Positions 36,332 through 60,103 of a DNA stretch of 64,000 nt are shown piece by piece. The translations under genes were made by a program, and so were the position numbers. This DNA is from an uncultured Coriobacteriaceae bacterium (GTDB taxonomy: Bacteria > Actinomycetota > Coriobacteriia > Coriobacteriales > Atopobiaceae). Within the stretch, counting starts at the first letter, position 1. The number at the start of each line of letters is the position of its first letter. Where the stretch lies: NCBI GenBank assembly GCA_902803315.1, contig CADCPM010000037.1, forward strand, positions 1-64,000. Direction: 5' to 3'. The notes beneath the pieces are model-generated. The model saw only the letters and a list, made by a program, of their open reading frames with translations, searched no databases and was not told the DNA's origin.

Positions 36332-36406
36332 TGGAGCGGGTGACGGGACTCGAACCCGCGGATGGTAGCTTGGGAAGCTACTGCCTTACCACTTGGCGAC
36401 ACCCGC
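36332..36406 (-). tRNA. tRNA-Gly (CCC)
   Basis: On the minus strand the 75 bases form a cloverleaf with acceptor stem GCGGGTG and CACCCGC, discriminator T and an encoded CCA. The anticodon arm GTAGC-TTCCCAA-GCTAC gives anticodon CCC. The T-loop is GGTTCGAGTCC. A strong terminator follows. Confidence 0.94.
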
Positions 36407-36468
36407 ATTTCGCAGTATGTTAGCACAAAAGCCAACAAGGGGACAGGGTCTTGTTAGCCTTATGTCTC

Positions 36469-54136: not shown

Positions 54137-55417
54137 TTAGCCGTGTTCGCGCAGGTGGTAGCCCTTGTCTTCGTCCATGATCTCCAACATGGCGCGCGCG
54201 ACGTCGGGGTCGAACTGCGTCCCCGCGTTCTCTTGGATCTCTTTTCGCACCACGTCTTGCGACAAGTGCGTGCGATACACCCTGTCGGAGGTCATGGCGT
54301 CGTAGCAGTCGGCCACGCAGATAATGCGCGCCTCAAGCGGGATATCGTCGCCGGATATGCCGTCGGGATAGCCGTGTCCGTCGTAGCGCTCGTGATGCCA
54401 GCGCGCCCCAACGGTAAACTCGGGCATGGTCTCCACCTTGCTCAGGATGTCTCCGCCAAGAGAGGCGTGCGAGCTTATGACGCCGAACTCCTCCTTCGAC
54501 AGTCTTCCCGGTTTGCTTAGAACCGCGTCGGGAATGCCGATCTTGCCCACGTCGTGCAGCAGCGCCATGCGATAGATGCGCTCGGCCTCCTCGCGCCCCA
54601 ACCCCAAACGCTTGGCGAGCATCTTCGCGTATTCGGCAACGCGACCCGAATGACCGCGCGTGTAGGTGTCCTTTGCGTCGACCGCCTCGGCCAGCGCACC
54701 AATAACGTCGTCGAGCATTCTTCGCTCGTTGGCCACGATTTCGCGCGAGCATTCCAGCTCGTAGGCTATGAACATGAGCGCGAGCGACGTGGAGCCGGCG
54801 AACGTGGTAAGAGAGATCCCATAGGTAAACAACTGGGCAATTGCGGTAACGATTGGCATGACTTCGAGGGTCACGAACGAGGCGCGCTCGATGCGCGAAA
54901 AGCATCGCCAATGCTTGAGCGTCAGCGCGAAGAGGGCAAGCATCGATCCCCAAAGGATGATGACCATGAGCCAGTAGCTGTTGAGGCGATAGTACTGGTT
55001 GTGCTCGTCAAACGCGTAGTAGAAGCCGAAGATCCGCGAGAGGGCGAGCAGTGCGATCCCAACGAAGATCGCTGCATTGTATGCGCGCTTGAACATCGGA
55101 CTGATTACCGTCTCGCTTCGCTCGAGGGTTCGAACAATAAACGCTGCGGCAAACAACAGGACCAGATGGTTGCATAGGAACACGGCAAAGTTGGAAATGC
55201 GGACCATCCACCAGCCCAGGTCGGACGCGTTGCCGCGAAAGATGTATGCTAGGGCCTCAAATACGTTGAGGAACGTGTTTGCCAGCAGTGCGCCGAAAAG
55301 AGACTTCGCCTGCAACGGGTTATAGCGATGAGTCAAATAAACGCCAAGCATCAGGATGACGCTGAACAACGCACTCCAAATGTCGAATGTCGTATTTAGC
55401 GTCTGAACTGTGCTCAT
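54137..55417 (-). CDS. Membrane HD-GYP c-di-GMP phosphodiesterase
   Basis: A 426-residue protein. The N-terminal about 230 residues hold six to eight membrane segments of a 7TM-type sensor module. The C-terminal HD-GYP domain has GHSGRVAEYAKMLAKRLGL, MALLHDVGKIGIPD, a second metal site in HASLGGDIL, ARWHHERYDGHGYPDG and ICVADCYDAMTSDR. It would degrade c-di-GMP to GMP. I chose the ATG at 55417, which gives a proper first membrane segment, although no strong ribosome site is seen; an in-frame start 105 bases upstream adds a non-hydrophobic leader. Confidence 0.9.
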   Translation of the reverse strand: MSTVQTLNTTFDIWSALFSVILMLGVYLTHRYNPLQAKSLFGALLANTFLNVFEALAYIFRGNASDLGWWMVRISNFAVFLCNHLVLLFAAAFIVRTLERSETVISPMFKRAYNAAIFVGIALLALSRIFGFYYAFDEHNQYYRLNSYWLMVIILWGSMLALFALTLKHWRCFSRIERASFVTLEVMPIVTAIAQLFTYGISLTTFAGSTSLALMFIAYELECSREIVANERRMLDDVIGALAEAVDAKDTYTRGHSGRVAEYAKMLAKRLGLGREEAERIYRMALLHDVGKIGIPDAVLSKPGRLSKEEFGVISSHASLGGDILSKVETMPEFTVGARWHHERYDGHGYPDGISGDDIPLEARIICVADCYDAMTSDRVYRTHLSQDVVRKEIQENAGTQFDPDVARAMLEIMDEDKGYHLREHG

Positions 55418-55552
55418 CTGGCTACACCGAGAGTCTGATTCGAACCTCAGCTTAGTATAGACGTATATTCCTGAAGCATGACTTAGGATTGTCCCGCTGC
55501 CTATGATGTGCTTCAAAAGCATAGAGCATACAGTTTGGTGGATGCGTTACGG

Positions 55553-55753
55553 CTTCGTGTAGTTTGCGGCTTATATTTGCCAGTTTTATCGCATATTGCA
55601 CGGTTTTTGAGTGAGAGTCGTACGGAGCGATAGTATTGAGCCTTGCTAAGATGCAGGTAGAAGGGTCAAAAATGCGGGCCCGTAAAATCCGCTATTCAAA
55701 AACTGTGCAACATAGGCTAAAATTGGCAATTCCAAGCCGCAAATTACACGAAG
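55553..55753. repeat. 58-bp-arm inverted repeat upstream of paralogue 3
   Basis: Arms 55553-55610 and 55696-55753 match as reverse complements at 48 of 58 positions (both begin CTTCGTGTA and TTTGCGGCTT, both end GTTTTTGA). The 85-base interior contains, on the minus strand, CTACCTGCAT, like the core of elements E2 and E3. It ends 10 bases before the start codon of the nuclease-like gene. The promoter of the divergent HD-GYP gene lies to its left in 55418-55552. Confidence 0.93.
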
Positions 55754-55763
55754 CAGGAAACTC

Positions 55764-56999
55764 ATGGCAGACTACAAAGCGAAGGGCGGGGAGCGAACGA
55801 CCGCACCTTCTTCGGACGAGCAGATTGCCAGCACGAACGCACTGGTGCTCGACGGCCCGTCGGCCTTGGCGCTCTATCGGGATCGAGATGACCTAAAGGC
55901 GGGCTTGCAACAGCGCGACAAACCGTCGGAGCCCGTTGTTCGCTTTGACGAAGACGCCGAAGACTTTTGGCTGTCAGACGAGGACTTGGCAATGACCCTT
56001 TCCGGCGAGAGCATATTCAGCGACTTTAGCAAAAGCAAAGACGATGCGTACCTCGAATCGGACGGCGAAACCCTGCCACCGCTCGTACGATCCTCCATGA
56101 CTCGCATGAGAAAAGCCGCGGCACGTTCGCGTGACCTTAAGCAGGTACCCTACGAGACGCTCGGAATCCGACCTCCCGCACACAGCTCGCCCCTTTACCT
56201 GCTCGTACCGCAAGTCGGGCGCCGTCGCTCGGTAAAGCACGTAAGTCAGCGACTTTGTCGCACCACGTTGCCCGAGCGATCGTTTTTGCGGCTCGGCAAC
56301 AAGGTTTACGTGCCGACGCCGGAACTCACGTTTTTGCTGATGGCGCATTACCTCGAACTGCACCAACTCATAGTCCTGGGCATGGAACTATGCGGCTTTT
56401 ACCGCCTGGTTGGCGCGGCAACCCAAAGTCCGCTCGTCTCGAACCGCACGCTCTACGGACGGGCGCCGCTCACCACGCCGCACCGCATTGCGGCATTTCT
56501 CGATCGAGCCAGCGGCGTAACGGGGTTACCGCTTGCGAAAAGAGCGCTCTCATACCTAGAGGCAGGGTCCGCATCCCCCATGGAAACAGCGCTCTATCTG
56601 CTCCTTTGTCTCCCACGGAAGCTAGGGGGCTATGGCCTGCCGCATCCACAGCTCAACGCGCGCCGGCAGGTGACGCCACGCGCCGGCTCCTTTACCCTAA
56701 GCAAATCGCTTGTGCCCGACCTCCTCTGGCCAGATGCGCGCCTCGACCTGGAGTACGACAGCGAGGAGTTTCATGCATCGGAAGATGCTCTGCAAAGGGG
56801 TGCGCGTCGCGCCTTGGCCTTGCGAGCCATGGGCGTCGAGGTCGTGTCGGTAACCAAGGAAGTGGTGTACGACAAAGCTGCGTTTGACACATTGGCGCGC
56901 ATGGTGGCAAAGGCGATTGGCGCCCGCGTTCGCAAGCTAACGGAGTCGGGTGAGTGTGAGCGCCAACTTTTGCGCCAGACGACGCTCTTTGCGGAATGA
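55764..56999 (+). CDS. AbiEi/DUF559-like nuclease-fold protein, paralogue 3
   Basis: A 411-residue paralogue of the genes at 1039 and 36574. The first about 110 residues are an acidic extension (FDEDAEDFWLSDEDLAMT). Then come SSPLYLLVPQ, VPTPELTFLLMAHYLELHQ, GMELCGFYRL and SPMETALYLLLCLPRKLGGY, followed by GLPHPQLNARRQV. The nuclease-like core is VPDLLWPDARLDLEYDSEEFH (shown in two parts: D319 in VPDLLWPD; E330, Y331, D332 and H337 after it). The ATG at 55764 follows AGGAAA and lies 10 bases beyond a 58-bp-arm palindrome. No partner gene is adjacent. Activity is inferred. Confidence 0.65.
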   Translation: MADYKAKGGERTTAPSSDEQIASTNALVLDGPSALALYRDRDDLKAGLQQRDKPSEPVVRFDEDAEDFWLSDEDLAMTLSGESIFSDFSKSKDDAYLESDGETLPPLVRSSMTRMRKAAARSRDLKQVPYETLGIRPPAHSSPLYLLVPQVGRRRSVKHVSQRLCRTTLPERSFLRLGNKVYVPTPELTFLLMAHYLELHQLIVLGMELCGFYRLVGAATQSPLVSNRTLYGRAPLTTPHRIAAFLDRASGVTGLPLAKRALSYLEAGSASPMETALYLLLCLPRKLGGYGLPHPQLNARRQVTPRAGSFTLSKSLVPDLLWPDARLDLEYDSEEFHASEDALQRGARRALALRAMGVEVVSVTKEVVYDKAAFDTLARMVAKAIGARVRKLTESGECERQLLRQTTLFAE

Positions 57000-57175
57000 C
57001 TTTGCAGAAATCTTAATGTCAGCGCCCCGAGTTCGAGCTGCCCCAAAACTGCCCCTCTCGCCTTGTTTACCATCTTATGTCTACCCTTGACTGAATAAAT
57101 AAGATTCCGTGAGTACGAGATAAGAACAACATGTGTATCATTGAGCAATAGTGGCAATCGAGAGTCGGGGGACCG

Positions 57176-60103
57176 ATGGCGCGGGCAGCAGAAAAAATCA
57201 AACGGAGCATGGTCTTTTTTCTGCTGCTCGTACTCTCCCTCTCTGCGGTGGCCATGCCAACGCCGCGCGCGAGGGCGCTTGCGCAAGAGAAGGAAAGCAA
57301 GGTGGTGCGCGTTGGTTGGTACGACTCGTCGTACAACAACATGGACAAGTTCGGCCGCCGCTCTGGCTACGCCTACGAGTACCAGCTCAAGATCGCGGCG
57401 TATACCGGCTGGAGCTACGAGTACGTAACGGGAAGCTGGTCGGACCTCCTGCAGATGCTGGTCGAGGGCAAGATCGACCTGATGAGCGACGTCTCGTACA
57501 CCGAAGAGCGCGCCAATAACATGCTGTTCCCCGATTACTCCATGGGGTCGGAGGAGTACTACCTGTTTGTTGCCCCTGGCAGTCAGGAGGTCTTGTCGAC
57601 GGATCCCTCTACGCTCAACGGAAAGCGCGTTGGCGTGAACAAAGACAGCATTCAGGCCGACTTCTATCGTGACTGGGCTAAGCGCAACGGGGTAACCGCC
57701 GAGGTCGTCGAGCTTACTTCCACCGAGGACGAGTCGCTGCAAATGATCAAGGAAGGCAAGATCGACGCCTACGTTACGGTGGACTCCTTCGTGGACCCGA
57801 CACGCGCCATGCCGGTGTACAAGGTCGGGTCGTCCGACTTCTTCTTTGCCGTAAACAAGAACCGGCCCGATTTGCAAGAGGACCTCAATGCGGCGCTGAG
57901 TAGCATCCATAACGAGAACCGCTACTTCAACCAGCAGATGTTCGAGCAGTACATAAACACGGCGGGCGCAAACGCGTTCCTCTCGGCAACCGAGAAGGGC
58001 TGGCTCGATGGCCACGGCCCCATTCGCGTGGGCTACCAAGACAACTACCTGGCATTTTGCGCAACAGACAAGGAAACCGGAAAGCTTACGGGTGCCCTAA
58101 AGGACTATCTGGAATACGCCCAGACCTGCATGGAAAACGCGAAGCTCTCGTTTGACCCAAAGGCCTATCCCACGGCGGAGGATGCCCTGGAGGCCTTGAA
58201 GAGGGGAGAGGTCGACTGCGTTTTTCCCGCCAGCCTTGGCGGCTTTGACGGCGAGAAGCAGGGCATCGTTACGACGCCACCGCTCATGAGCACCGACGTC
58301 TATGCGGTTGTTCGTCAGACGGATATGAAGAACTTCAACAACGAAAGGCATGTGATCGTTGCCGTTAACGAGGGAAATCCAAACTACGACGCCTTTTTGG
58401 TGGACCACTTTCCCAACTGGCAGACGGTGTACTACAAGACGACCGACGACTGCCTAAAGGCGGTGGCGAACAACACGGCGGATTGCGTGCTCATTAGCAG
58501 TTACCGCTACAACAACATATCTCGGTTGTGCGAGCGACTGCATCTTACGACCATTCCAACGGCCGTGAGCCTGGACTCGTGCTTTGCGGTGGGAAAGGGA
58601 AACACGGAGCTCTACTCCATACTGGCAAAGGTCGTGAACCAGGTTCCCGACTCCACCGTCAACTCGTCGCTGTCGTACTACCTCACCGAGGACGCCAAGC
58701 GGACCCTCACGGACTTCCTTACCGACAACATGGGCATTGTGCTGGCAATCGTTGTGGCCGTAATACTAGTCATCACATTGCTTCTACTGCGCAGCAAGCG
58801 AGCGGAAAAGCTCGCGAAGGAGCTCATCTCGGCAACGGAAACGGATACCCTAACGGGACTCTACAACAGGGATTACTTCTTCCAGTACGCCAACAGGATG
58901 AGTCGCGAGCAACCCGACGTGCCCATGGATGCCATCGTGCTCAACATCGAGCGCTTCCACTCGATCAACGCCCTCAATGGAAGGGACTTTGGCGATCGGG
59001 TGCTCAAGACGCTTGGAAACGAGCTGCGTATAATCGCCCAGGAAAACAAAGGCATTGCGGGTCGATTTGGCGCGGACAGGTTCGATCTCTTCTGCCTGCA
59101 CGTAGAGGACTACCATGCCGTCTACGATCGCCTCCAGCACAAGCTGGAAGAGATGGCACCCAACGCAAGCATTCGCCTTCGCATGGGCGTGTTGTCTGAG
59201 CAAACGCAAATGGAGCCGGTGCAGATGTTCGACATGGCACGCACGGCATGCAGCATGGCTCGCGGTCACTTTAAGGAGCACGTTATCGTATTCGACGAGA
59301 AGGTCCGCGAGCGCGAGATGCTTGAGCAACGTTTGCTCAACGACGTGCAGCGTGCTTTGGACAGCTATGAGTTTGAGGTTCACTACCAGCCAAAATACAA
59401 CATTCAGGTTGATCCGCCACAACTCGTGAGCGCAGAGGCGCTCATTCGCTGGCGGCATCCGGAACTGGGGATGATCGCGCCTGACGACTTCATCCCCCTG
59501 TTCGAGCGTAGCGGCAAGATCGTGGAAGTGGACAAGTACACCTGGTCCACTGCGGCCAGACAGATTGCCCGCTGGCGGGCGGAGTACGGAAGAGTGATTC
59601 CGGTTTCCGTTAACCTGTCGCGGATTGATGTGTTCGATTCAGAGCTTGAGGAAACGCTCGATGGTATCCTCAAAGAGAATGGGTTGGATCACGATGCGCT
59701 AAAGCTGGAGGTCACGGAGTCGGCCTACATGGAAAACGGGGACCAGCTCATACGCGTAATCGAGAGTCTGCGCGAGAAGGGGTACACGGTTGAGATGGAC
59801 GACTTTGGAACCGGCTACTCTTCCCTCAACATGCTGTCTGCCACTCCCATTGACGTCATAAAGATGGACCGGGTGTTTATCCAGAACATCGAGAGCGACA
59901 AGAAGACCGCTCGTCTCGTAGAGCTGATTCTGGGAATCGCGAAGAGCTTGGATGCGCTGGTGGTTGCGGAGGGCGTGGAAACCGAGTCCCAGTTAAAGCT
60001 GCTCAAGAGCTTGGGATGTGCGATGGTGCAGGGGTTCTACTTCTCGAAACCGCTGCATCCGTCCGACTTCGAAGCCAAGTATCTTCAGGGCGAAGAGCGG
60101 TGA
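57176..60103 (+). CDS. Tandem SBP-domain sensor with degenerate GGDEF and EAL domains
   Basis: A 975-residue membrane protein. A signal or anchor segment (VFFLLLVLSLSAVAM) precedes two type-3 solute-binding domains (about 40-260 and 285-500; first VVRVGWYDSSYNN, second IRVGYQDNYLAF). A membrane helix (IVLAIVVAVILVITLLLL) follows, then a GGDEF-like domain whose active site is GADRF near 630 and so probably inactive, and an EAL domain with SAEALIRWRHPE near 750, LEVTES, DDFGTGYSSL, KMDR and EGVET intact. It is likely a c-di-GMP phosphodiesterase controlled by an extracellular amino-acid-like ligand. It leads an operon with the next two genes; eight bases separate it from the dCache-GGDEF gene. 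Confidence 0.9.
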   Translation: MARAAEKIKRSMVFFLLLVLSLSAVAMPTPRARALAQEKESKVVRVGWYDSSYNNMDKFGRRSGYAYEYQLKIAAYTGWSYEYVTGSWSDLLQMLVEGKIDLMSDVSYTEERANNMLFPDYSMGSEEYYLFVAPGSQEVLSTDPSTLNGKRVGVNKDSIQADFYRDWAKRNGVTAEVVELTSTEDESLQMIKEGKIDAYVTVDSFVDPTRAMPVYKVGSSDFFFAVNKNRPDLQEDLNAALSSIHNENRYFNQQMFEQYINTAGANAFLSATEKGWLDGHGPIRVGYQDNYLAFCATDKETGKLTGALKDYLEYAQTCMENAKLSFDPKAYPTAEDALEALKRGEVDCVFPASLGGFDGEKQGIVTTPPLMSTDVYAVVRQTDMKNFNNERHVIVAVNEGNPNYDAFLVDHFPNWQTVYYKTTDDCLKAVANNTADCVLISSYRYNNISRLCERLHLTTIPTAVSLDSCFAVGKGNTELYSILAKVVNQVPDSTVNSSLSYYLTEDAKRTLTDFLTDNMGIVLAIVVAVILVITLLLLRSKRAEKLAKELISATETDTLTGLYNRDYFFQYANRMSREQPDVPMDAIVLNIERFHSINALNGRDFGDRVLKTLGNELRIIAQENKGIAGRFGADRFDLFCLHVEDYHAVYDRLQHKLEEMAPNASIRLRMGVLSEQTQMEPVQMFDMARTACSMARGHFKEHVIVFDEKVREREMLEQRLLNDVQRALDSYEFEVHYQPKYNIQVDPPQLVSAEALIRWRHPELGMIAPDDFIPLFERSGKIVEVDKYTWSTAARQIARWRAEYGRVIPVSVNLSRIDVFDSELEETLDGILKENGLDHDALKLEVTESAYMENGDQLIRVIESLREKGYTVEMDDFGTGYSSLNMLSATPIDVIKMDRVFIQNIESDKKTARLVELILGIAKSLDALVVAEGVETESQLKLLKSLGCAMVQGFYFSKPLHPSDFEAKYLQGEER

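Follow-up and report, generated by a model that had tools for sequence, protein, structure and literature searches.

Hairpin-forming DNA elements standing beside nuclease-like genes in gut Coriobacteriales recur, without such a gene, elsewhere in the same genomes, and their arm sequences follow the lineage of the adjoining nuclease; together, genes and hairpins resemble a mobile-DNA system in miniature, centred on a nuclease. A parallel is offered by the REPINs and RAYTs, i.e. short dispersed inverted-repeat elements, each type of which lies beside its own enzyme gene, with several types per genome, no coding capacity, and co-evolution of enzyme and repeat (PMC3116915; PMC8266576). By analogy with these, we consider it somewhat probable that the hairpins, which are dispersed and paired by lineage with a cognate nuclease of predicted restriction fold, work in a REPIN/RAYT-like manner.

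The window, i.e. the whole 64,000-nt stretch of DNA that was analysed, belongs to a metagenome-assembled genome (designated G000; 2.95 Mb in 122 contigs, 87% complete), the named relatives of which are rumen and gut Atopobiaceae/Coriobacteriaceae. One of its nuclease-like genes, P3, is preceded by a hairpin element that we assign to family F:

55552–55754, + strand: hairpin element of family F, a long-armed imperfect inverted repeat, with homologous copies standing alone on G000 contigs C95 and C51
55653–55658, + strand: core sequence GCAGGT, on which the dyad of the family-F element is centred (from the sequence and a centring analysis)
55755–55758, + strand: AGGA, a plausible ribosome-binding site straight after the element (judged from the sequence)
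55764–56999, + strand: nuclease-like gene P3 (411 aa), encoding an N-terminal domain and a predicted Vsr/EDxHD-type restriction fold (structure match; invariant residues)

The original prediction of a long imperfect inverted repeat ending 10 bp before the ATG of P3 (at 55764) was borne out. Its arms (55547–55610 and 55696–55759) are 64 nt each, 81% complementary, and 85 nt apart, and its self-complementarity score is 98, the best of 200 dinucleotide shuffles of this region reaching 36; the element as a whole is discrete and about 200 bp long. Comparison of arms likewise upheld the claim that this repeat is unrelated to those of the other paralogues, none of which it matches. The further claim that the repeat is private to its gene did not stand: homologous hairpins without an adjoining nuclease gene (solos) were found by DNA search of the same genome at C95:9240–9393 and, more diverged, at C51:17587–17740. 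The repeat is private to the gene lineage instead, and is a dispersed element. A separate, perfect-looking 16-nt hairpin (CGGGCAGCAGAAAAAA / TTTTTTCTGCTGCTCG) lies at 57182–57230, right where the kinase gene downstream begins.

In the close relative G001, positions 54156–57061 of the window, which hold an HD-domain gene, the hairpin, and the nuclease gene, are missing; the genes to the left of the missing segment are 99% identical between the two genomes and the kinase to the right is 85% identical. A clean insertion of gene and hairpin was considered and rejected, because G001 keeps what looks like a leftover of the HD-domain gene's 3′ end. For the same reason, it is more likely that G001 has lost the entire 2.9-kb segment around P3 by deletion.

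Two other nuclease paralogues, P1 and P2, lie in the window:

700–962, no strand assigned: inverted array downstream of P1, built of CAAAGTCTGTA motifs at a spacing of about 21 bp and including the core AAAACCGCAGGT at 833–844
1039–2106, − strand: nuclease paralogue P1
2434–2740, no strand assigned: second array of P1's private motif CAAAGTCTGTA, upstream of P1
36574–37773, + strand: nuclease paralogue P2 (TTG at 36451 being an alternative possible start), with no such element adjoining

The expectation that all three window paralogues would have a large repeat beside them held for P1, on both sides, and for P3; it failed for P2, where the only repeat is weak (scores 33–39), encloses a tRNA-Gly gene (36332–36406), and is of a different kind from the hairpin elements. 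The two CAAAGTCTGTA arrays flank P1 as inverted halves, with solo arrays at C59:15722 and C119:2517. Across G000, a hairpin element adjoins eight of ten distinct paralogues (P1, P3, P4, P5, P6 [weak], P7, P9, and P10); among these ten, P2 and P8 are without one, and P8 has lost catalytic residues. Arm sequences assign solos to P1 (C59, C119), P3 (C95, C51), P4 (C50, C56), P7 (C32, C35), and P9 (C43, C63, C64, C65, C96, C105), with two of the P9-type solos matching P10 about equally; copy numbers in G000 come from searches and are to be read as 'at least'. The same assembly contains another hairpin family, CAAATGCGCATTTGGGC / TTGCAGTTTGG, which has the shared core and is seen at C15:34613, C62:8061, and C116:35606 (L060, L071, L079), its cognate nuclease not being found in the assembly. 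At C38:3552 (L063), the core AAAACCGCAGGT follows an apparent partial tRNA gene with no clear hairpin. Contig C56 (at about 45–58 kb and 72–85 kb) reads as its own inverted duplicate, the nuclease genes being identical in both halves, probably an assembly artefact.

The original prediction also held that the association of genes and repeats exceeds chance, and the wider sample agrees. With a hairpin defined by a span of at least 110 nt, a score of at least 30, and a distance of at most 350 nt from the gene, one is found near 48 of 76 nuclease genes (distinct homologues); for the genes next to them, the figure is 38 of 224 (Fisher p = 2e-13), a conservative control in that neighbours can border the same hairpin. 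Asking whether most other paralogues lack a repeat left the association standing: besides the eight in G000, 48 of the 71 distinct homologues from Coriobacteriia have one. No hairpin is detectable at the remaining third of the Coriobacteriia homologues, and none adjoins any of 20 homologues from other Actinomycetota. Counted over distinct genes, the hairpin lies downstream in 32 cases, upstream in 20, and on both sides in 4. Nuclease homologues are present in 52 of 246 sampled genomes of Actinomycetota, and a search of viral contigs found no relative. In the analysis as a whole, most genomes are metagenome assemblies, which are incomplete and broken at repeats. Homologous nucleases, several per genome and without hairpins, were also seen in metagenome-assembled genomes labelled Clostridiaceae (L151, L154, L158–L163), which are possibly misbinned or reflect transfer.

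Dispersal was assessed by joining the hairpins of 11 P3-type nucleases and searching 16 genomes of the genus, with all counts being minimum values. Among the matches listed, those at least 130 nt long are almost confined to the genome of origin or a close sister. They number at least 6 in G015, at least about 10 in G007, at least about 7 in G014, at least 4 in G011, at least 3–4 in G012, at least 3 in G000, and at least 1–2 each in G002, G003, G005, and G010; for some nucleases, the matches listed include a single hairpin copy in the genome concerned. G008 and G009, which are sister species, have one hairpin family in common, with at least 5 copies each, and their nucleases are 96% identical, with matching arms (score 96). 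Below about 66% protein identity, arm similarity is near chance: at less than 60% identity, the median arm score is 18 versus 15 for a shuffled null (95th percentile of the null, 19), and the two arms of each element score 30–84 against each other. This lineage-specific pairing of arm and protein supplies natural swaps with which to probe DNA recognition by the protein. An exception to lineage-private arms was noticed in Olsenella uli An733 (L156) and Thermophilibacter provencensis (L168), two genera in which nuclease-adjacent hairpins have similar arms; the An733 nuclease gene appears to be flanked by hairpins on both sides.

Across the arm families, most hairpins have a common core at the dyad centre. 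The 12-mer AAAACCGCAGGT is common to the loops of several unrelated hairpins, with 21 exact copies in G000, most of them within hairpins of distinct arm families, and with 271 copies in 60 genomes (G000 and 59 relatives) versus 11 for a reversed control. Of 79 hairpins, 50 contain the GCAGGT core, against 7.6% expected by shuffling, and it sits nearly always at 0.49–0.50 of hairpin length. One genome, G025, has six cores and no nuclease that we could find.

The elements have discrete ends and vary in presence between relatives. Six copies in G015 begin and end sharply (GGTGGTTACACG...CGTGTAACCACC) within unrelated flanks; by eye, no target-site duplication is apparent in these six, the empty sites being too diverged to prove one. 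Elements of another family, D, are about 300 nt long with motif sites at both ends, and two of its G000 copies are missing at the syntenic place in G001: that on C96 (404 versus 122 nt), which is missing from G006 too, and that on C105 (435 versus 23 nt). In G001, a genome in which the P3 nuclease was not found, the family-F solo known from C95 breaks off within the element. In an empty-site comparison of G008 with G009, unpaired copies sit in regions that differ between both genomes. The site of a family-A hairpin on G000 C59 appears to be tandemly duplicated in G001 (L226, C115).

The structure of P3 was predicted with confidence (mean pLDDT 88.9, pTM 0.85), and in this model the C-terminal part has the Vsr/EDxHD restriction fold: residues 271–387 match the catalytic domain of the homing endonuclease I-Bth0305I (3r3p; Z 10.1, rmsd 2.6, 96 residues), and the same region matches Vsr (1cw0) at Z 8.9 and, lower, TnsA at Z 6.6. 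Four residues (E274, D319, E330, and H337) do not vary across 49 homologues; these conserved acidic residues and histidine are putative active-site residues, and three paralogues in G000 are degenerate, having lost some of them. Among 36 family members, Pfam gives weak matches to DUF559 in 11 and to MTES_1575 in 9, and no match to a Y1 transposase; NCBIfam yielded chance matches only.

In the model that we propose, every nuclease lineage is paired with a separate family of short elements (about 130–300 bp) that encode nothing and can form a hairpin. Their arms bear sequence specific to the lineage, in some cases as a motif recurring about every 21 bp, and the dyad is centred on the GCAGGT core. 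One or two copies flank the nuclease gene, and others are scattered in intergenic DNA. This much the data show: the pairing and its lineage specificity, the dispersal, discrete ends, and variable presence of the elements, and intact putative catalytic residues in the nuclease. By analogy with the RAYTs, we infer that the N-terminal part of the nuclease may recognise the arms, that the Vsr/EDxHD-fold domain may nick or cut the element or its target, and that the nuclease may thereby drive the copying of the element in trans to new places, as a result of which arms and protein would co-evolve. The hairpins resemble REPINs in that the gene-adjacent repeats are dispersed in the same genome, that every type of enzyme is matched by a distinct type of repeat, and that several types live in one genome. 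They differ in the enzyme, which in RAYTs belongs to the HUH class and uses a catalytic tyrosine but here is predicted to have a Vsr/EDxHD restriction fold, and in that the present elements are longer (about 130–300 bp), fewer (1 to about 10 copies), and endowed with a GCAGGT core at the dyad centre. Because the defining HUH enzyme is absent, we do not file the system as a member of REPIN/RAYT, and say only that it would work like one. Counting against the model are that no transposition event was observed and no target-site duplication was seen in the six G015 copies, and also the Coriobacteriia homologues without a detectable hairpin, the lack of one at P2 and at P8, the latter having lost catalytic residues too, the hairpins present in single copy, and the G025 cores and G001 solo for which no nuclease was found; an enzyme other than the nuclease could move the elements.

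The main rival reading is one of operators and autoregulation, in which an AbiEi-like regulator represses its own gene through private inverted repeats, with the dispersed copies being its regulon. AbiEi and Rv2827c do bind 23-bp inverted repeats in their own promoters, a precedent for inverted repeats bound by the product of the neighbouring gene (PMC7319586). One member of the nuclease family matches the PADLOC AbiEi profile, if weakly (1.2e-4), the motifs of the P1 arrays are about 21 bp, i.e. about two helical turns, apart, and the window element lies directly upstream of P3. Kinship with AbiEi is nonetheless unproven, as the N-terminal domain modelled alone matched no PDB fold by Foldseek or VIA-align, a result that leaves room for a relation. 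Moreover, the repeats of AbiEi and Rv2827c lie in the promoter only and are, to our knowledge, not dispersed elements, whereas the hairpins cannot generally be promoter operators because more of them stand downstream than upstream (32 versus 20). Discrete ends, unrelated flanks, and absent sites in relatives are marks of an inserted element, and the putative catalytic residues are invariant. We therefore regard regulation by operators as unlikely, with the qualification that an arm-binding self-repressor and a mobiliser could be one protein, the two readings not being exclusive.

The hairpins could also be taken for MITEs derived from a conventional transposon, of the DDE or another type, with the nuclease genes merely carried along, and terminal inverted repeats, a length of about 200 bp, and no coding capacity are what such elements would have; indeed, sharp-ended terminal inverted repeats within unrelated flanks are present in the G015 copies and in family D. 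This we judge improbable, given that, across many species, arm sequence follows nuclease lineage, that eight of ten unrelated paralogue lineages in G000 have a family of their own, and that the six G015 copies lack visible target-site duplications. Still less probable, in our estimation, is a transcribed hairpin acting as a structured RNA, e.g. a guide or antitoxin for the nuclease, despite the resemblance of variable arms and a constant core to a scaffold with a variable part and the location of the window element in the 5′ leader of P3, should a promoter lie upstream. An apparent wobble-pairing bias in arm mismatches (78 versus 136) vanished once related copies were removed, G-U-type and A-C-type mismatches then being equal (46 versus 56, p = 0.37), and there is therefore no sign of selection on pairing within one strand; the orientation of the core relative to the gene is mixed, and Rfam gave no match.

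Compared with known nucleases of the same fold, the REPIN/RAYT-like arrangement that we favour has points of its own. I-Bth0305I, an EDxHD homing endonuclease, and Vsr share the predicted fold and the intact acidic and histidine residues, but EDxHD homing endonucleases differ from the present nuclease, which is free-standing beside a hairpin and outside any intron or intein, is multicopy, and has an extra N-terminal domain. The DUF559 and MTES_1575 proteins of Actinomycetota are alike at the level of weak profile matches, and those outside Coriobacteriia have no adjoining hairpin (0/20). We know of no enzyme of the Vsr/EDxHD type that runs a miniature mobile-DNA system. Thiomargarita is described as having putative transposases with a PD-(D/E)XK restriction fold in a MITE-rich genome; these belong to another nuclease family, and the available part of that account does not describe a lineage-specific pairing with hairpins (PMC4853749). 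In the open-access literature, we found no report linking AbiEi with DUF559, DUF559 with inverted repeats, or Atopobiaceae with inverted repeats, which does not by itself prove novelty.

A bolder formulation, which we put forward tentatively and hold as possible, is that a Vsr/EDxHD nuclease mobilises miniature hairpin elements, with as many as eight or more enzyme lineages and their private families side by side in a genome, and that this arose independently of the HUH transposases. If true, a restriction-fold nuclease driving a REPIN-like life would be a case of convergence with a mobilising chemistry not yet described, and a large, multicopy, unexplained group of DUF559-like proteins in Coriobacteriales would gain a function. 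The central claim can be tested in a cultured relative, Adlercreutzia mucosicola DSM 19490, in which the hairpin of the nuclease has about six further dispersed matches (E ≤ 0.001), mostly 70–75% identical.
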